Below, one piece after another: positions 1,845 to 23,294 of a stretch of DNA of 23,455 nt. The notes beneath the pieces are model-generated. The model was not told the origin of the DNA. It saw only the letters and a list, made by a program, of their open reading frames with translations, and did not search any database. The number at the start of each line of letters is the position of its first letter. Position 1 is the first letter of the stretch. The stretch comes from a virus. The translations under genes and the position numbers were made by a program. The stretch lies in the IMG/VR virus record IMGVR_UViG_3300005913_000917, positions 1-23,455 of that record. One strand, given 5' to 3'.

Positions 1845-2210
1845 TTACTTAACGAAAGGTTTTAGATTAGGTGCTACCCAACCTAGTGGTTTCATGACCT
1901 TTCCATCTTCACGCTTGCGTACCTTGCCAGTCTCTCGATCAATCTTAGCAAAGTTAGAACTCATGACTTCTTTCCAGCCTGCTTCTCCATCGAAGCCTCC
2001 ACTATGGATAGCACCAATAGTAACCACAAGAATGTCTAACAATGCATCTAACTGCTCTTCTCGATCTCCTTGTTCAACTGCTACGTTAAATTCTTTAAAT
2101 TCTTCAGCAATTAAATCACTGTAAAGTTTATACTGCTTGTCATTATGGTCGTCTACTGTTTGATCGCATGCCCGCATAAATTTTTCTTGGTCTCTAAATA
2201 AATTTGTCAT
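1845..2210 (-). CDS. MazG-like / phosphoribosyl-ATP pyrophosphohydrolase-type NTP pyrophosphohydrolase
   Basis: This 121-aa all-helical protein has the two metal-binding helices of the all-alpha NTP pyrophosphatase superfamily: IAEEFKEF (ExxE type, about residues 34-41) and DALLDILVV (ExxD type, about 55-63), followed by a conserved-looking 'GWKEVMSSNFAKID' and a 'GKVMKPLGW' C-terminal segment. Members hydrolyse nucleoside triphosphates or house-cleaning nucleotides to the monophosphate and PPi. Phage versions have been proposed to alter host nucleotide or alarmone pools. Length is normal for the single-domain phage form. The ATG abuts the TAA of the GroES-like gene with a GGAA ribosome-binding site inside that gene. 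A stem-loop follows, so this is probably the last gene of its transcript. Confidence 0.85.
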   Translation of the reverse strand: MTNLFRDQEKFMRACDQTVDDHNDKQYKLYSDLIAEEFKEFNVAVEQGDREEQLDALLDILVVTIGAIHSGGFDGEAGWKEVMSSNFAKIDRETGKVRKREDGKVMKPLGWVAPNLKPFVK

Positions 2211-2588
2211 TTAATTTCCCGGTAACGGTACATCTTTTGCAGGTTCAGTATTTTGAAATGCTAGCAAAATATCATTTGGCGGATTGTCTGCTGACATCAG
2301 TATAGCACTATTATCTACCATACGCAACTCTATTTTTTTACCATTATCAAGTTCGTGTTCGATGCTACGAGTCCATCTTCCGTGCTCTACTAAGATCCAT
2401 TCACCTACTTTGACATCAGATTGATCAGGACCGACTGCCCATACTTTACCCCATCGAGGATGGATACCGCTTACTTTACCGTTATCACTCGGAATAATAA
2501 TTCCGGAAAATGTTTTTTGTCCGTCAAAGTTCATATTTGAAATTAGAACTTTATTAGACAATGGAACAATTTTGCCTTGTACTTTCAT
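2211..2588 (-). CDS. GroES-like co-chaperonin (T4 gp31-type role)
   Basis: This 125-aa protein has the beta-barrel pattern of 10-kDa chaperonins: 'GKIVPLSNKVLISN' first strand, a flexible loop with SGIIIP (about residues 29-34) that corresponds to the GroEL-binding mobile loop, 'GKVWAVGPDQSDVKVGEWILVEHG' core strands, and a final 'MVDNSAILM' strand. GroES (about 97 aa) has the same order; T4-like phages encode their own version so that host GroEL can fold the large capsid protein. The C-terminal 20 residues form an extra polar tail. The ATG overlaps the stop of the upstream gene as ATGA, with AAAGG about five bases before it. Sequence divergence means I infer the chaperone role from motif order rather than from a close match. 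Confidence 0.8.
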   Translation of the reverse strand: MKVQGKIVPLSNKVLISNMNFDGQKTFSGIIIPSDNGKVSGIHPRWGKVWAVGPDQSDVKVGEWILVEHGRWTRSIEHELDNGKKIELRMVDNSAILMSADNPPNDILLAFQNTEPAKDVPLPGN

Positions 2589-2851
2589 TTTTTACCTTTC
2601 GAATAAGTTACTGAATCTTGTACAACTGTGTTCGATGCTTTAGGAGTAGATTGTTTAACTGCGGCTGCCGGATTATTTTCGTAGTAGGCATTAATCTGCT
2701 CTTCTCTACGCTTAACAATCTTTCCGCCAGGACCTAATTCATCGCCTCGAGCATTCATTCTGACATTACCAACTGCTGGCATTGTTTGATTCTTTTCTAG
2801 CAATTGATCCATGTCGACCATTTTGCCTTTCATTGTTCTATATTGTCTCAT
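2585..2851 (-). CDS. 88-aa conserved-looking T4-like phage protein of unknown function
   Basis: The protein is small and basic. It begins MRQYRTMKGKMVDMDQLLEK, continues with 'PAVGNVRMNARGDELGPGGKIVKRREE' and ends in a low-complexity Ala/Ser/Thr/Lys tail. The 'VGNxxxNARGDELGPGG' block is a pattern I associate with small conserved proteins of T4-like marine phages, but no function is known to me. A strong AAGGAG ribosome-binding site lies before the ATG. The gene is followed with a four-base overlap by the GroES-like gene, so the two are likely co-translated; a role linked to capsid or protein folding would be a guess. Confidence 0.75.
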   Translation of the reverse strand: MRQYRTMKGKMVDMDQLLEKNQTMPAVGNVRMNARGDELGPGGKIVKRREEQINAYYENNPAAAVKQSTPKASNTVVQDSVTYSKGKK

Positions 2852-2861
2852 ATTGGACTCC

Positions 2862-3380
2862 TTATTTTAAAAACTCGTTAATGTCAAGTTTGTATTTTAC
2901 ACTATCAATTTTGTGAACACCTAACAGGTATAAGCAATAACTAGCGACCGAACTGCCCCTACCTACTCCCCATACAATTTTATGCTCACGCATTGTGTCT
3001 ACAAAGTATTTAAGATATTTTAATACATCCATCATGCCATGCTGGCGGAATAGACTTAACTCTTCTACTAATCTTTCGTAGTTTTCTGTTGGACAAATAC
3101 TAACTAGATACTCTTCAATATCTATTTGTTTATACTCATCCGGCATAAACCAGTTTTGTTGATTGTTTTTGTCAAAATGATCTACAGATTCTGTATGTTC
3201 AGAATAAGATTTTAATTCTGAAATATCGTCATAATTTATCTTAACAGCAGAATTAAATTTAATTAATTCGTCTAAGTCGGCGAGTATAACAGATTTAATA
3301 TCTGTTATTTGTCCAGAATATATGGCTTTAAAAACTTCATCTGAAGTTAATAATATATCACCGTATTCTGTAGTTTTCAT
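2862..3380 (-). CDS. stand-alone DnaE/PolC-like 'GRGS' module protein (not a full polymerase)
   Basis: The C-terminal third of this 172-aa protein has VWGVGRGSSVASYCLYLLG (about residues 136-154) followed by 'HKIDSVKYKLDINEFLK'. This matches the bacterial replicative polymerase III alpha-subunit segment 'GPGRGSAAGS...LGITxxDPLxYxLxFERFL'. The N-terminal part is Asp/Glu/Lys-rich and not recognisable. The protein stops just before where the alpha subunit's catalytic aspartates begin, so it cannot be an active polymerase; it keeps only the phosphate-binding-type loop and flanking helices. It lies between structural and chaperone genes. The start codon lies in an inverted repeat and has no Shine-Dalgarno sequence. 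A role in nucleotide binding or in interfering with the host replicase is conjecture. Confidence 0.72.
   Translation of the reverse strand: MKTTEYGDILLTSDEVFKAIYSGQITDIKSVILADLDELIKFNSAVKINYDDISELKSYSEHTESVDHFDKNNQQNWFMPDEYKQIDIEEYLVSICPTENYERLVEELSLFRQHGMMDVLKYLKYFVDTMREHKIVWGVGRGSSVASYCLYLLGVHKIDSVKYKLDINEFLK
3286..3308. repeat. inverted repeat ATAACAGAT/ATCTGTTAT inside the DnaE-like gene
   Basis: ATAACAGAT (3286-3294) and ATCTGTTAT (3300-3308) form a perfect 9-bp stem around a 5-base loop, near codons 25-32 of the DnaE-like gene. The same half-site recurs at the start of that gene (3379-3398). Confidence 0.6.
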
Positions 3381-3398
3381 CTGTTAAGTATAACAGAT
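3379..3398. promoter_or_regulatory. inverted repeat covering a stop-start junction
   Basis: ATCTGTTA (3379-3386) and TAACAGAT (3391-3398) form an 8-bp stem with a 4-base loop. It spans from the last base of the upstream TAA to the AU of the DnaE-like start codon, so in mRNA the start codon would be partly paired. There is no Shine-Dalgarno sequence. A translational or operator control site is a reasonable inference. Confidence 0.5.
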
Positions 3399-3640
3399 TA
3401 ATCTACATTAATCAAGCCATCAATTTCACCATTTAATTTAGTTGAAGTGTCTTGCAGTGCTCTTTGACTTCTTTTCGACATTTCGAATCGATATGCTTCT
3501 AATGCAACAAGTATCTGTGGAATAACATCATTCATTCCAGATCGTGCAGCAATAGCATATTTTTTACCAAGTTCTAAAACTTTGGATTCAACTTCGTTGT
3601 CCTTTAATTTAGACAAATCTTCCATTAATGGATTAAACAA
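3398..3640 (-). CDS. 80-aa conserved-looking phage protein, TTG start
   Basis: This small, mostly helical protein starts (L/M)FNPLMEDLSKLKDNEVESK and continues 'LGKKYAIAARSGMNDVIPQILVALEAYRFEM', an amphipathic helical pair. I associate the 'FNPL...DLSKLKD' opening with small conserved proteins in T4-like marine phages, function unknown. The start is a TTG at 3640, supported by AGGGGG five bases upstream; the next ATG (3625) has no ribosome-binding site. The ribosome-binding site lies within the last codons of the structural gene upstream, with an 8-base overlap. The N-terminal half could form a coiled coil. Confidence 0.7.
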   Translation of the reverse strand: MFNPLMEDLSKLKDNEVESKVLELGKKYAIAARSGMNDVIPQILVALEAYRFEMSKRSQRALQDTSTKLNGEIDGLINVD

Positions 3641-4205
3641 AAGGGCCCCCTAATAATTTTACATAAACATTTGCACCAGCATCTACAGTCCATAATTCAA
3701 AGAAAAATGGATCAGGCGAGGTAGTAGAACTTACCGTGTAGGGAAATGTTAGGCTAGATTCTTTTTTAATACTGCCTAATGTGTTATTGAAAGTTACAGT
3801 AGCATTAGTTGTAGTAGAATTATTTTTAATTTCTAATTTAACCTTGCCTTCTATTGCTGCGCTTGGCCAGTTAACAACTCCTAAACTGATATTACCTGTA
3901 ATACCCACTTGTTGATAGTTTCCATTTAATGCACTAATTTCAGTCACATCTTCGAGAACTGTAAATACTTTTAAGCCTACTGAGTCTAATACAGCCCTGT
4001 AGATATTTCCTTCGTACCCGAAATCATTTCTTTCATCTAACCTTGCGGTATTTGTTTGTAGTCCGTTAACTTCACTTGCAACTGATGTTAACGCATTTTT
4101 AATGTTTGAATAGTTATCTCTAAATCCCTGAGTGTCATTATCTACTCCAGGAATTGGATAATTGGTGTTAATACTATTGATATAAGTTGTTGCTGTACTG
4201 CTCAT
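3633..4205 (-). CDS. tail-fibre/baseplate-associated structural protein with phage anchor domain
   Basis: This 190-aa protein has an N-terminal block 'INTNYPIPGVDNDTQGFRDNYSNIKNAL' (about residues 11-38) typical of T4-like phage fibre and baseplate proteins, followed by a short coiled coil (VASEVNGLQTNTARLDER). The rest is beta-rich with Thr/Asn/Val repeats, ending KLLGGPFV. It is the last structural gene of the tail operon. The ATG has AAGAGA upstream and a TAAATATC motif about 21 bases before it, which could be a weak late promoter. It probably forms or attaches to a small fibre; the receptor-facing part is unknown. The assignment rests on the anchor block and position. Confidence 0.75.
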   Translation of the reverse strand: MSSTATTYINSINTNYPIPGVDNDTQGFRDNYSNIKNALTSVASEVNGLQTNTARLDERNDFGYEGNIYRAVLDSVGLKVFTVLEDVTEISALNGNYQQVGITGNISLGVVNWPSAAIEGKVKLEIKNNSTTTNATVTFNNTLGSIKKESSLTFPYTVSSTTSPDPFFFELWTVDAGANVYVKLLGGPFV

Positions 4206-4226
4206 AAGAATCTCTTGTTAGTTGTA

Positions 4227-4236
4227 GATATTTAGC
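4227..4236 (-). promoter_or_regulatory. possible T4-type late promoter motif (GCTAAATATC)
   Basis: GCTAAATATC on the minus strand ends 21 bases upstream of the ATG at 4205, the same distance as the AATAAATAC motif upstream of the 2099-aa fibre gene. It overlaps the end of the protease gene. A single weak match, so tentative. Confidence 0.25.
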
Positions 4237-5809
4237 CACGGATTGTTAGTGGGTCAGGTAAATTAAATGGTTGGTATAGTGCTCTAGCAGGGCCGCCCTG
4301 TAGATTTCCCCAAGAACCGTAATTAGTCCCACTATAATATGTTTCATCGGCAAGCCAATTGCTACCGTATGCTTCGATAAAATTACGACAATCTTGTTGG
4401 GTCATCCAAGGTCTTGCTTGTAATATGCATGCTAATAATCCTACAACTTGAGGACTTGATTGACTAGTTCCTGAAATTGCATTTAGATAGTACGTGTATG
4501 TACCAGCACTTCTTGTATCAGCAACCGCAGGACCTGCATATGCAGCGTTAGCATATGCACCCATAATATAATCACCGGGTGCCCATACATCTACTTTAGG
4601 ACCAGCACAACTAAAATTGCGTTTATGTTCAGGATCAGGATTACTAGTAGCAACTGCTGCAATACATCCTACTGTGATTACTCCCGATGTTGCAGCAGGA
4701 GTCGAACCTCTATGATAATAAAAACTACTTCCGTAGTAAGAACTTGTCCAATAGTTATTATAATCTGCTCCGCCTAACACATCTATTTTATGACGATCGT
4801 TTCCGGCAGCACCAACAACTATAATTCCAACAGCAATAGTAGCAGCAACTTCGGCATCTATTGCAGTATACCTATATCCATGAACACCGCTGCCGCCTTC
4901 TGGAACTCCTATAGTACCGTATGCAACAGTTGTAGTAGTTGCTCCGGTTAAACTTCCTCTATAATTAATGTTGGTTACATCTCTATAGGTTATGTTAAAT
5001 CCAAAACTACAATTAACAATAGTAGGACGTTTGTAACCAGTTACAGGGTCTACAGGCTTAGAGTTATGCCATGCTCGTAGAGTTTGCCAAATTTGAAAAT
5101 CGTCCAACAATGCCAATGTTCTTCCGTCTGTAATATCTGTATAGGGACCAGCGGTACCGTCCCCTACTGAACGTAGAGTATAAATGGCAGACCCTTTGGC
5201 CCAACCGCATGTATTACCCCCTGCAATACTTGCACAATTGCTACCGTGTCCGTCACAGTCACCCAAAAATCCTCCAGTAGGAACACTCATGATGCCGTGC
5301 TGTGACCAGTCATAATCTACTACACGACTACCGCCTGTACCGTCTGCATTGACTGCAAACTCTGGATGATTAGGTTCTACTCCTGTATCGATAACAACAA
5401 TATCAACGCCTGTACCATCTAAGTTAAACGGAACATTTGCTGCTATAGTTGTATTCAGTCCAAAATTGTGTGTTGTGCTTACAGCCCTAAGGAGTCCCCA
5501 GTTTTTATTATTAGTGTTTGCTATAGCACTTTTACTATAATTGCCTGGTCTAATACCAAATGGACTTTTTTGCACACCTAATTCGTAAGGATCTCTATGC
5601 ACATCTACAATTCGTAAATCGCTTAACAATGCATCTGCTTCTTCCTGTGTTAGTAACACCGCGGAGTTATGATTGCTGTGCGGCATGTCGTCTACAATAT
5701 CTACTGTTCTTGTAGGTATTGCTTCGTCCCCTGTATCTGAAACTAATTCTTGTTTTAAAGAGTCTTTACTAATTGCATCTTCTGCAACAACATAAAACTT
5801 GTGCAACAT
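4232..5809 (-). CDS. subtilisin-like serine protease (peptidase family S8) in the tail operon
   Basis: This 525-aa protein contains the complete S8 catalytic set: Asp in VIDTGVEPNHPEF (D141), His in DGHGSNCASIAGG (H188), the oxyanion Asn in GAAGND (N337) and Ser in SGTSQSSP (S449). The first ~80 residues (HKFYVVAEDAISK..., LLTQEEADALLSD) look like an I9-type inhibitory propeptide, with no signal peptide, so it is made in the cytoplasm and could be packed in the virion. The domain ends near residue 480, leaving a short Gly/Tyr-rich tail. It sits between a collagen-like gene (one-base TAATG overlap) and another structural gene. Possible roles are maturing the fibres or cutting host surface proteins; both are inferred from context. 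Confidence 0.93.
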   Translation of the reverse strand: MLHKFYVVAEDAISKDSLKQELVSDTGDEAIPTRTVDIVDDMPHSNHNSAVLLTQEEADALLSDLRIVDVHRDPYELGVQKSPFGIRPGNYSKSAIANTNNKNWGLLRAVSTTHNFGLNTTIAANVPFNLDGTGVDIVVIDTGVEPNHPEFAVNADGTGGSRVVDYDWSQHGIMSVPTGGFLGDCDGHGSNCASIAGGNTCGWAKGSAIYTLRSVGDGTAGPYTDITDGRTLALLDDFQIWQTLRAWHNSKPVDPVTGYKRPTIVNCSFGFNITYRDVTNINYRGSLTGATTTTVAYGTIGVPEGGSGVHGYRYTAIDAEVAATIAVGIIVVGAAGNDRHKIDVLGGADYNNYWTSSYYGSSFYYHRGSTPAATSGVITVGCIAAVATSNPDPEHKRNFSCAGPKVDVWAPGDYIMGAYANAAYAGPAVADTRSAGTYTYYLNAISGTSQSSPQVVGLLACILQARPWMTQQDCRNFIEAYGSNWLADETYYSGTNYGSWGNLQGGPARALYQPFNLPDPLTIRG

Positions 5810-6798
5810 TAGTAAATCCTTGTTCTATCGTATGTCCACCAATAAGTGCCATCAAAATAAACTGGCTGCGCCACTCCGACAGCATCTATTGCAAACATCA
5901 TAGCACCTGGAGTAGTAGTTAATGACAGTGTAGTTAATGTTGAAGTTGTGCAAGTAGAAAGAATAAACGGACTGTTTACTTTGACATTGCCTACTGCTGA
6001 TAAGTTTAAGTCATTACCAGAAACAATATTTGCAGCGCCTGCTGATGATACTGTCAATGTGTTTACATATAGAGTTTGAACAGTATAAGTATTGCCGACT
6101 AATACAGCAGCACCAGTGGCGCCTGCTGGCCCAGTAGCACCTGGCACATTACTTACACCTGCTGTGCCAGTAGCACCAGTCGGTCCAGTAGCACCTGTCG
6201 ATCCAACTCCACTAGGTCCTGTGGAACCTGCTGGACCAGTCGCTCCAGTAGAACCATTTGATCCATTAGTTCCAGTAGCGCCTGTAGCACCTGCTCCAGT
6301 CGCCCCGGCAGGCCCAGTCGCCCCGTCAGCACCTGTAGCGCCTGTGCCGCCCTGTGCTGCTGCGGTTCCTGGAATACCTTGTTCACCAGTAGAACCGGCA
6401 GGTCCAGTTGCTCCATCTAAGCCAGTGGCACCTTGTGCTCCAGTAGCACCTGTACCACCAACTCCTTGTGCTCCAGTTGACCCTTGTGGACCAGTTGATC
6501 CTTGCGGCCCTGTTGCACCAGTGGCTCCAGAACCAGTAGCACCTGTTAACCCTGTAGCGCCGTTGGCACCTGTAGCACCTGTGCCGCCTTGTAGTGCAGC
6601 AGTACCTGGAATTCCAGTAGCACCAGTAACTCCGGTTGCACCAGTTGCTCCGACCCCTCCTGGACCAGTAGCGCCGGTAGCACCTCCAGGTAGTGGCCCT
6701 GCTAACCAAGCAGTTGAAGTAGAATTGTAAACCCAAAGGTAGCCATCATATGTATATATGTCGCCGTTGTTAGGATCGTTTGGAAAACTTATTGCCAT
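5809..6798 (-). CDS. collagen-like GXY-repeat fibre protein 1 (329 aa)
   Basis: The N-terminal ~40 residues ([27 protein letters not shown]) form a short beta domain of the kind found at the ends of phage collagen-like fibres. Residues ~41-232 are GXY triplets dominated by Gly-Ala-Thr and Gly-Pro-x, expected to form a trimeric triple helix. The C-terminal ~95 residues ([20 protein letters not shown]... to [11 protein letters not shown]) are a beta-rich, probably trimerising or receptor-binding head. Collagen-like stalks are known from phage tail fibres. The stop overlaps the protease start by one base, and a 6-bp gap separates it from the second collagen-like gene. Antisense frames across the repeat stay open as a by-product of the repeat and are not genes. 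Confidence 0.88.
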
Positions 6799-6804
6799 AA
6801 TTTA

Positions 6805-8205
6805 TTACCAGGTTGTGTCTATTGTTGTTCTTATCCATGTGTCAGTTGCTACACAAACATACATATATGAACTATCATAAGTAATTTCGCCCGGATTTCC
6901 TGTAGAAGTAGGAGTCTGTGCGCTACTAGTTACTGTAACAGATCCCGTCAATCCAGTAGCGCCAGTAGCACCAAATCCTTGCGCACCGGTAGCACCTGTT
7001 GCTCCAATGTTCCCGTCGTTTCCTTGCGGACCAGTAGCACCTGTTGCTCCTAGCCCGGTAGCACCAGTTGATCCGTCGGGCCCGTTTGGACCTTGCGGAC
7101 CAGTAGCACCTGCAGAACCAGGAATTGTTGAATCAGCACCTGTTGCTCCTGCTGGACCGTCTAAACCGGTTGCACCCGTGGCACCTTCAGATCCTGCCGC
7201 TCCTGTTGCCCCAAATTCTCCTTGTGGACCAGTAGCACCTGTTGCCCCTGCACCAGTAGCACCTGGAGTACCAATACCGGTTGCTCCAGTAGCACCTGCA
7301 CCGGTAGCACCGGTTAAACCTGTTAATCCCTGTACTCCAGTTGCTCCTTGATCTCCTTGAGAACCAGTTAATCCTGTAGCACCACTTCCTGTAGCACCAG
7401 TAGCACCTTCATTTCCAGTTATACCGGGGAATCCAGTTGCACCAGTTGAACCTTGTGGTCCAGTAGCACCACCCGGAGTTCCTTGTGGTCCTTGTGGTCC
7501 AGTTGAACCAGTAGAGCCCGGATCTCCGTCCACGCCATTTAATCCGCTTGGCCCAGTTGCGCCTGAACTTCCGGTTGCACCCGGTGAGCCTATTCCTGTA
7601 GAACCTGTAGAACCTACTGATCCTTGCGGCCCTGTTGCACCTAAACTTCCAGTTGCGCCTGGTGCTCCGGTTGCACCCGTAGAACCAGTTGCACCCAATG
7701 CCGCCGCAGTACCCGGAATACCTTGCAGTCCAGTTGCTCCAGTAGCACCATTATTTCCTATGGCTCCACCAGGTGCTGCTGCAACCCAAATACTGCCATT
7801 GTATGTTAATAATTGTCCCGAGTTTCCAACGTCTAGCCACATGTCACCTGCCGTAGATTCTGCAGGTTTAACAATTGAAATTACAGCAGTTAGTCTAGCA
7901 CCAGTTGAACCTTGCAAGCCGGTTGCTCCAGTAGCACCTTGAATACCTGTTGCGCCAGTGGCTCCTGATACATCTAAACTTACTGATATAGTTCCAGTAC
8001 TATCTATTTCTAATCCATTGCCTACAATAACAACACCGGGCGTTGATGTAGTGGCAATATTTTGTTGTGTTAGAATATATTCTGCTATTGTATCTAAACT
8101 TACTTGAACTGTTGGCCTTGCACCTAATACGCTTGTGTCAATTGCAGGAACTATTGTTTCTCCCGTTGCAGTAGTTAATACTGGTAAATTGCTTATGGTA
8201 CTCAT
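6805..8205 (-). CDS. collagen-like GXY-repeat fibre protein 2 (466 aa)
   Basis: The N-terminus [20 protein letters not shown] is followed by a beta-rich region to about residue 80 (an 'anchor' shared with collagen-like protein 3). The triple-helix repeat is interrupted at about residues 103-145 by a small domain ([33 protein letters not shown]) resembling an insertion hinge, then GXY repeats continue to about residue 423. The C-terminal ~40 residues end [20 protein letters not shown], a compact cap found on other phage collagen-like proteins. It overlaps the stop of protein 3 by four bases (ATGA), so the collagen-like genes are coupled. It probably forms a trimeric stalk. The receptor is unknown. 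Confidence 0.88.
8171..8205 (-). repeat. direct repeat copy A at the start of collagen-like gene 2
   Basis: This 35-bp segment covers the first codons of collagen-like gene 2. It matches 10474-10508 at 32 of 35 positions, and the 24 bases nearest the start codon are identical. Confidence 0.85.
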
Positions 8206-10508
8206 TTAACTAAACACTCCACTAAACCGGGCCCACCGTCTTCTAAAGCAAATGCAAATGGTGATCGACTATTTGGTACATTAGTACCTTTACCGTCACC
8301 CCAAGGATAAATGGGGTCACCTTTTCTTACAAATGTCGCTAACATAACAGGCACACGCCCTGTTAAAGCAATAAATGTACCGCCTTCTAATTCTTCGTTC
8401 ATTCTATATGCAGGTTTTTCAGATACAACACCTACTGCATAACAATCATTATTTTTCACAGCAGTTACTTCTCGGTCCCCGCCTGCCATTACTACTGTAC
8501 CTACATCATATTCTTGATCTGTTAGATATTTTTCTGCTAAGTCAGCATATTGTGCAGATGTTGCTGTACCATAAATTATTCCGTTTATATCTCTTGCTAC
8601 AACTGTACTTCCGATATTTAATTCTTGTGCCCCCGCATAGTATGTACTAGCAGTTGTGCTTGTAACTAGTAATGTGTTGGCCTCAGTACCAGCAGCACCA
8701 GTTGCACCTGACGGACCTGCTGGTCCAGTTGCACCTGACGGACCTGCTGGTCCAGTTGCACCTCTAACATTACCTGCAACTATATCAGTTGCATTTGATA
8801 ACGTTAAGACTAATTCGTCTAATATTATACTAGCAGTTGTAATTGATACTCCAGATGCACCTACTGCACCAGCACTTCCTTGTGGTCCAGTTGCGCCAGT
8901 AGATCCAGTAGCCCCAAATGATCCCGGAATACCATCTGGACCAGTTGCACCTGAAGGTCCGGTAGCACCGGTAGCACCATCAGCGCCAGTTGCTCCGTCG
9001 GGCCCTGTTGCGCCAGTTGCACCAAAATTTCCTTCTGGACCAGTAGCACCTGTTGAACCCGTTGGACCAGTTGCGCCAGTTATAGGCCCTACTGTTATTG
9101 TAGTACTATCATTTAAAGTAAACTCTAAATTAATATTACCGTCGACTAATGTTGCAGTAGTTACATATAAACCAGTAGCACCAGTAGCACCAAAAGCGCC
9201 AGCAGCACCAATTTCGCCTTGCGCACCAATTTCGCCTTGCGGGCCAGTTGATCCTGTAGCGCCTGTTGAGCCAGTCCCGCCTTCAGTACTTACACCCGGC
9301 GGTCCATTTGGGCCAGTTGCTCCTGTTGCACCAGGCACATTGCTCACACCTTGAATACCTTGAGGTCCAGTAGCACCTGTTGCACCAAGTTCTCCTGTTG
9401 CACCTAACGCACCAGTAGCACCTGTGCCTCCTTGATTACCAGTAGCACCAGTAGCACCTGCTCCGGTAGCACCTGGCTCTCCTTGGTTACCTGTTGCACC
9501 GGTTGATCCTATGCCAGTAGCACCAGTAGCACCTGCTCCAGTAGCGCCAGTAGGCCCCGTTACGCCTGTTGCACCATCTGGTCCTGGTATACCTTCGGCT
9601 CCAGTAGCGCCAGCACCTGTAGCACCTTGAACACCAGTAGCACCTTGTGGACCTGGTACTGTGGAGTCAGCACCGCTGGCACCAGTAGCGCCTATATTTC
9701 CTTGTGGTCCTGGTATGCCTTCTGATCCTTGTAATCCAGAAGCACCTGTTGCACCTGGCCCGCCCACAGGACCTGTTGCTCCACTTGCACCTGTAGCACC
9801 TTGTGCTGCTGCGGTACCTGGAATTCCTTGTGGTCCAGTAGCACCTGTTGTTCCTATATTTCCTTGAGGTCCAGTTGCACCAGATGAACCTGTTGCTCCT
9901 TGCAATGCCGCAGTTCCTGCAATGCCTTGAATGCCTTGCGGCCCTGTTGCACCAGTAGCCCCGTCATTGCCGTCATTGCCTACAGGGCCAGTAGAACCAG
10001 TAGATCCGGTTGACCCTGTACCACCTGCATAAGTTGCAGTGCCCGGAATACCTTGCGGACCAGTTGCTCCTAATGCTCCTGTAGATCCTAAGGGTCCAGT
10101 TGCACCAGTTGCACCTGCAGGACCTGTTGCGCCTGTAGATCCTAAGGGTCCAGTTGCACCAGTTGCACCTGTAGATCCGGTAGCACCTTGAGCCGCCGCC
10201 GTTCCTGCAATGCCTTGTTCGCCTGTAGCGCCTGGTTCGCCTCTATCACCTTTTGGGCCTGTTGCACCGCTAGCACCATCAACTCCTGCAGGACCTACTA
10301 ATCCAGTAGCACCAGTTGCGCCGCTTCCTGTTGCTCCTCTTAGACCAATTGGTCCAGTGGCACCAGTTGCACCTACCGCAGTTTCTCTACTAAAGAATGT
10401 TCCTAAGTCGCCTACAGTAGTTTGATATGTTTTCCCCTCCTGCGCTGCTATCAGAGAAACATCATTTGTAACTGTAGTTAACGATGGTAAATTGCTTATG
10501 GTACTCAT
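8202..10508 (-). CDS. collagen-like GXY-repeat fibre protein 3 (768 aa) with YADLAEKY tail domain
   Basis: This is the longest collagen-like protein here. Its first ~25 codons are nearly identical at DNA level to those of protein 2 ([12 protein letters not shown]). GXY repeats run from about residue 46 to 610, broken by two short non-collagenous inserts (around 440-465 and 550-575; e.g. [20 protein letters not shown]). The C-terminal ~116 residues, beginning [10 protein letters not shown] at about 653, match the C-terminal domain of the 2099-aa fibre protein (shared YADLAEKY, PAYxMNxExEGG, ALxGRVPxx, xRKGD). This domain recurs in T4-like phage fibres and is likely the distal or trimerising tip. 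The ribosome-binding site is weak and the gene follows a 3-bp gap. Confidence 0.9.
8698..8763. repeat. 27-bp perfect tandem repeat in collagen-like gene 3
   Basis: Two identical 27-bp units (8698-8724, 8725-8751) plus a 12-bp partial third encode GATGPAGPS-type triplets near the end of the collagenous region. Such perfect copies point to recent slippage or unequal recombination. Confidence 0.88.
10078..10171. repeat. 40-bp direct repeat, period 54 bp, in collagen-like gene 3
   Basis: The 40-bp unit at 10078-10117 recurs exactly at 10132-10171. The 54-bp period equals 18 residues (six GXY triplets), so copy-number change would keep both reading frame and triplet phase. Confidence 0.85.
10474..10508 (-). 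repeat. direct repeat copy B at the start of collagen-like gene 3
   Basis: Partner of the repeat at 8171-8205, with 32 of 35 positions identical, covering the ATG and first codons. Recombination between the copies would delete or duplicate a whole collagen-like gene cleanly. Confidence 0.85.
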
Positions 10509-22355: not shown

Positions 22356-22384
22356 ATTTTACACGATATTACGGAAATAGTCAA
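22356..22384 (-). promoter_or_regulatory. sigma70-like promoter (TTGACT-17-TAAAAT)
   Basis: On the minus strand TTGACT (22384-22379) and TAAAAT (22361-22356) are 17 bases apart, followed by a ~19-base leader with AGGAG and the ATG at 22330. The -35 box is identical to that at 1823-1828. The stop codon of the UDP-xylose synthase gene forms the first half of the -10 box. Confidence 0.68.
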
Positions 22385-23294
22385 TGGTTTTTTCTAGGCC
22401 TTTTACTAAAGGAATTTTTGGTGTCCAGTTCAACATTTGGTTGGCTTGTGAAATATCAGGTCTACGTTGTTTTGGATCATCTTGCGGCAAAGGTTTATGT
22501 ACAATTTGGCTGTTAGATCCGGTTAGTGCAATCACTTGTTGGGCTAAGTCTAACATAGTGAACTCTCCCGGATTGCCAATGTTAACAGGACCAATAAACT
22601 GATCGTCAGGATGATTCATCATAGCCTGCATAGCATCCAAAAGATCATCAACGTAGCAAAAACTACGAGTTTGCATGCCATCACCGTATATAGTAATGTC
22701 ATTGCCTTTAAGAGACTGAACAATAAAATTGCTAACAACTCTACCGTCATTTTCGGCCATTCTAGGTCCGTATGTGTTAAAAATACGCACAATCTTGGCC
22801 TTAACATTATGTTCACGGTAGTAATCCATGAATAGTGTTTCAGCAGCACGTTTACCTTCATCATAACAACTACGAGTACCAATTGGATTTACATTACCCC
22901 AATAAGATTCTTGTTGCGGATGCTGGTGGGGATCACCGTAAACTTCACTAGTACTAGTCTGTAGAATTTTAGCACCAGTGCGTTTAGCAAGCCCGAGCAT
23001 ATTAAAAGCACCGATAACAGATGTTTTCATAGTCTGAATTGGATCTAACTGATAATAGTAAGGACTTGCAGGGCATGCCAAATTGTATATTTCATCTACT
23101 TCTACATATAACGGAATGCATATATCTTGTCGAATGACTTCAAAATTTTTATAATCCAGCAAATGTTCAATGTTCTTTTTACTGCCAGTAAAGTAGTTGT
23201 CTACACATAGGACATGATGACCTTCTGCTACTAATCTATCACACAGGTGACTACCTAAAAAACCAGCCCCACCAGTTACAAGAATTTTTTTCAT
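22359..23294 (-). CDS. UDP-glucuronate decarboxylase (UDP-xylose synthase)
   Basis: This 311-aa extended short-chain dehydrogenase has the NAD-binding GGAGFLG (residues 8-14), the 'STSEVYG' active-site strand, and the catalytic YDEGK inside '[19 protein letters not shown]', which together with '[10 protein letters not shown]...DGRVVSNFI' and '[11 protein letters not shown]' is the signature of UDP-xylose synthases rather than of UDP-galactose epimerases. The enzyme oxidises and decarboxylates UDP-glucuronate to UDP-xylose. Length fits the soluble bacterial form. It starts 2 bp after the stop of the DadA-like gene with AAGAG upstream. In a phage it may alter host polysaccharide or modify phage components; that is inferred. 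Confidence 0.92.

Follow-up and report, generated by a model that had tools for sequence, protein, structure and literature searches.

A gene encoding a 172-aa protein in a 23,455-nucleotide virus sequence (IMG/VR record IMGVR_UViG_3300005913_000917, analysed over its whole length and henceforth referred to as the window) is a new member of the split minimal Pol III alpha described in group 2.2 jumbo phages by Iyer et al. 2021 (PMC7824862). Our preferred reading, to which we assign a probability of roughly 0.6, is that its product is the N-terminal half of a miniature C-family enzyme made from two genes and acting as a small accessory DNA polymerase. The basis of this reading is homology, complementary boundaries of the two halves, their co-occurrence, invariant catalytic residues and purifying selection, from which we infer physical assembly, catalysis and an accessory role.

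In the published system, NTP binding is assigned to an N-terminal protein and metal and template binding to a C-terminal one, the two genes lying far apart, and it was suggested that the split alpha may cooperate with a family B enzyme in one-strand synthesis or repair (PMC7824862). Like that system, the window gene encodes a standalone GRGS-containing, putatively NTP-binding piece which ends ahead of the catalytic aspartates, and its relatives carry a distant, separate catalytic gene together with a family B polymerase; the second gene lies outside the fragment, and no feature of the window gene excludes membership. We arrived at the split independently, and what we add to the published description is the change at the R390 position, estimates of selection, conserved gene clusters, many metagenomic phages and one 141-kb phage. 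The literature that we searched, with most subscription journals outside its scope, contained no biochemical test of the split alpha.

The 172-aa protein matches the GRGS region of DnaE

The open reading frame starts with ATG and its product matched phrog_11127 over the whole length (E 1.7e-44; see Table 1). PF07733 (DNA_pol3_alpha) matched residues 94-171 with an E-value of 3.3e-11 and 43.7 bits (curated cut-off 23.9 bits), covering model positions 17-94 of 260. The initial annotation had reported a match to the GPGRGSAAGS region at the C-terminal end and had proposed profile-profile comparison as a check; the match held, the family aligning to six phage DnaEs over 77 columns without gaps (E 1e-12). 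An ungapped alignment likewise pairs residues 99-171 with positions 320-392 of E. coli alpha, which places the end of the chain at the counterpart of residue 393, 8 residues before D401. The catalytic aspartates are therefore absent from this chain, which is not a complete DnaE and, as had been proposed from the sequence, is not a polymerase by itself.

There was no Pfam match to a PHP domain, and the part of the protein preceding the DnaE segment comprises just 93 residues, whose fold was predicted with confidence. The AlphaFold model of the single chain had a pLDDT of 91; among solved structures it came closest to chains of Pol III alpha, with E-values that were modest. A frameshift shared with a full polymerase gene was not found: the next gene encodes an unrelated 88-aa protein. 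An artificial read-through model of the GRGS half and the 88-aa protein (from L015) gave a pTM of 0.62, and Foldseek matched it only to Pol III. An identical copy of the 172-aa gene was present in one 35.8-kb contig.

Table 1 Features of the window at and around the GRGS-half gene
Feature	Position	Strand	Support or remark
First (GRGS) half of split mini Pol III alpha	2862..3380	(-)	172 aa, phrog_11127
DnaE palm segment, residues 94-172, equivalent to E. coli alpha ~315-393	2865..3101	(-)	Pfam, alignment, profile-profile
GRGS loop, codons 140-143 (E. coli 361-364)	2952..2963	(-)	sequence
Codon 169, Glu at the position of dNTP-contacting Arg390 of DnaE	2874..2876	(-)	alignment
Family-specific N-terminal part, residues 1-93, invariant W77	3102..3380	(-)	outside any Pfam match
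80-aa helical protein, phrog_15348, directly upstream	3398..3640	(-)	kept neighbour, 164/167 loci
88-aa protein, phrog_14844, directly downstream	2585..2851	(-)	kept neighbour, 165/167 loci
GroES-like co-chaperonin	2211..2588	(-)	kept neighbour, 161/167 loci
MazG-like pyrophosphohydrolase	1845..2210	(-)	neighbour, 89/167 loci

The GRGS half is widespread and conserved

A search for the same short form in other phages, also suggested by the initial annotation, was productive. Using tblastn with at least 80% coverage, we found the GRGS half in 59 phage records, mostly of jumbo phages, with hosts including Enterobacteria, Pseudomonas, Xanthomonas, Stenotrophomonas, Vibrio, Agrobacterium, Sinorhizobium and Salicola; in IMG/VR, relatives were encoded on hundreds of stretches. 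The C-terminal end fell 32-41 residues past RGS in all 171 homologous ORFs examined, and every one of 97 aligned members matched PF07733 (these counts take in close relatives and do not represent independent events). The median dN/dS was 0.12, i.e., the GRGS half is under purifying selection.

R141, G142, S143, S147, H156 and F170 were invariant in the 97 members. The first three correspond to R362, G363 and S364 of E. coli alpha, which are dNTP-site residues (PMC4374717); given their invariance, nucleotide binding by the GRGS half is plausible. By contrast, the position of E. coli R390, another dNTP contact (PMC4374717), was occupied by glutamate in 90 and aspartate in 7 members, while arginine was found in 6/6 DnaE controls.

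A divergent GRGS half was also found in Slicko01, a 141-kb Alishewanella phage. Two genes further along comes a GroES-like gene, and after it a MoxR-like AAA gene and a metallopeptidase-vWA gene (these features at 3725-4237 and 5064-7357). A scan with the Slicko01 protein as query yielded no further full members.

A separate gene carries the equivalents of the catalytic residues

The first whole-genome PF07733 searches (E up to 10, six complete genomes) did not find a second piece, as its PF07733 signal is too weak. Three sub-threshold matches in metagenomic genomes lay at or just past the point where the GRGS half stops, and the weak matches fell in ORFs of ~192 aa that start with MPDIDIDF and continue with FKIDFLN, IRPAK and FKKSHAIAYA. 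This family corresponds to phrog_11778, and it begins at PDIDIDF, the very motif missing from the GRGS half. The equivalents of D401, D403, D405, K553, D555 and H760 were invariant in 85/85 distinct second halves (those of K553 and H760 being placed by motif alignment), with the roles of the catalytic, lysine and steric-gate residues of alpha taken from PMC3919608, PMC4374717 and PMC8485763. K138 of the second half was invariant too.

Mapped onto the solved mycobacterial DnaE1, the second-half profile formed collinear blocks, with the thumb and ~110 residues of the fingers missing. The block around K553/D555 was supported by hhalign (E 2e-4); single blocks score weakly against DnaE, and it is their order together with the invariant residues that carries the homology. 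A start codon immediately preceded PDIDID in 87 of the 106 members. With the end of the first half at 393 and the beginning of the second at ~399, few residues were lost between them. Like its counterpart, the second half is under purifying selection (median dN/dS 0.12). Its gene was flanked by a zinc-finger gene (87/91 loci) and a convergent gene of ~124 aa (88/91), with a primase nearby in 79/91 loci.

The earlier suggestion that the GRGS half is a reused relic was not supported: the catalytic remainder exists as a conserved gene of its own, the two pieces abut almost seamlessly, and both are under purifying selection. A related reading, a gene left over from an old polymerase and now in decay, is hardly credible. 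The GRGS half is indeed shorter than a full alpha subunit, but a dN/dS of ~0.12 refutes decay, and the invariant positions in 97 diverse members and the fixed C-terminal end also count against it.

The two halves co-occur in distant operons

Among the 60 best tblastn matches of each half, 59 records were common to both lists. XacN1, the one BLAST exception, has the second half by profile, and so does the distant 141-kb phage Slicko01. Both halves were present in 16/17 large genomes or contigs, the exception (G005) being a 228-kb IMG/VR contig classed as lacking end repeats, a class often made up of fragments. In the reverse direction, only 1/8 contigs carrying the second half had the first; the other seven also lacked phrog_14844, which makes it probable that these fragments do not include the GRGS-half region. 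Where both were found, the halves belonged to different operons 11-224 kb apart (19 genomes), and no record examined had them fused or at one place. A family B polymerase was encoded alongside in 17/17 genomes tested. The window does not extend to the second-half gene and its phage is known from fragments only, so for this phage the second half is inferred from relatives. The description of the GRGS module as "lone" is thus accurate within the 23-kb window, though in relatives the catalytic half lies elsewhere in the genome.

It had also been proposed that the GRGS half might mimic part of the host replicase; in the form considered here, such a mimic would disturb host replication. Its likeness to alpha is what such mimicry would call for, but a separate catalytic gene is conserved in nearly every large relative, and we consider mimicry very improbable. 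The GRGS segment belongs to what we take to be the palm core, as opposed to a clamp-, tau- or epsilon-binding surface, which also counts against it.

Compared with bacterial DnaE, the GRGS motif is in the first half and the catalytic residues and steric gate are in the second; unlike DnaE, the split enzyme is distributed over two chains and lacks the PHP, thumb, OB and alpha C-terminal regions as well as R390. Alpha is likewise encoded in more than one piece in Thomasclavelia phage TR-TP2, Bacillus phage KLEB27-3 and Rossellomorea phage phiT1, where adjacent genes interrupt DnaE, but those pieces are neighbouring and larger, and the PDxDxD region or its equivalent lies within the first. Interruption of phage DnaE genes in this way, in two cases by HNH endonuclease genes, is a different kind of split. 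In Cellulophaga phage phiST, considered as a possible unsplit ancestor, the first 50 kb contained no annotated polymerase.

A putative two-chain enzyme with an altered nucleotide site

In the arrangement that we favour, the two chains would most likely meet without being covalently joined. The GRGS half would supply the nucleotide-phosphate loop and its flanking helices; from the second half would come the aspartates that bind metal, the active-site lysine and shortened fingers with the steric-gate histidine. Without thumb, PHP, OB and alpha C-terminal regions, such an enzyme would be expected to be small and distributive, and it may fill gaps or serve in repair as an accessory to the T4-type family B replicase of the phage. 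Counting against this arrangement are the distance between the two genes, their separate operons and the weak scores of single second-half blocks, besides the altered nucleotide site.

The replacement of R390 by Glu/Asp, combined with the loss of a finger segment bearing further dNTP-contacting arginines, means that the activity may differ from polymerisation; judged from sequence, the product could be a DNA polymerase or another nucleotidyltransferase. One conjecture is that K138 of the second half compensates for the loss of R390. Alternatively, the halves may assemble into a nucleotidyltransferase other than a template-directed DNA polymerase, such as a terminal transferase, an enzyme that makes primers or one that modifies RNA or protein. 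The acidic residue at the R390 position in 97/97 members, the new invariant H156, the loss of the thumb and much of the fingers, and the family B replicase that these phages already own would all fit, whereas the steric-gate histidine and three catalytic aspartates retained in 85/85 second halves fit dNTP use; we regard this alternative as unlikely. Much the same standing, a shade lower, is given to a different nucleotidyltransferase in which the 80-aa and 88-aa proteins possibly serve as dedicated subunits, for which the features cited are the acidic R390 position, the missing finger segment and the new invariant H156 and K138.

If the accessory polymerase reading is true, a bacterial replicase core cut down to two chains that total ~364 residues would help to define the minimum of C-family chemistry, and many jumbo phages would run a second, bacterial-type enzyme beside their T4-type replicase. 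There are also consequences for annotation. The first half was noted as truncated in the CBB genome paper (CBB_328; PMC5259590) and read as a Pol III alpha/replication subunit in that of Atu_ph07 (gp316; PMC6102473), and the second half is annotated as "putative membrane protein" in several records. The largest cluster of marine jumbo phages has PF07733 as its most typical gene (PMC9123017), a prominence which may partly reflect the GRGS short form.

Genomic neighbourhood of the GRGS half

As the initial annotation had it, the gene lies among chaperone and structural genes, with the GroES-like gene on one side and tail-type genes upstream. The conserved, same-strand cluster comprises the 80-aa gene, the GRGS half, the 88-aa gene, the GroES-like gene and a gp44 clamp loader gene, the last found nearby in 138/167 loci. 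In the 88-aa protein, an N-terminal motif around NARGDELGPGGKI is strongly conserved and the tail is variable; the protein had no Pfam match, no NCBIfam match and no convincing PDB match.

This cluster bears on another reading, in which the halves were reused separately and never form one enzyme, the GRGS half being a nucleotide- or phosphate-binding subunit working with the 88-aa protein cluster. The 88-aa gene is almost always adjacent (Table 1), and among the records listed it occurred only in phages carrying the GRGS half (40/40). Against separate reuse stand the co-occurrence of the two halves, which is nearly perfect, and their boundaries, which complement each other, and we hold it to be improbable.

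No T4 late promoter (TATAAATA) was present within the window. As weak evidence against a virion protein, the GRGS half bore no mass-spectrometry mark in the PA5oct record and was not called structural in the CBB and GAP32 records. Elsewhere in the window, a subtilase (Peptidase_S8) gene lies among the tail-type genes (4232-5809, minus strand), followed by three adjoining collagen-like proteins with long GATG-type repeats (5809-10508, minus strand), and a 311-aa protein (22359-23294, minus strand) resembles by eye a nucleotide-sugar epimerase/dehydratase.
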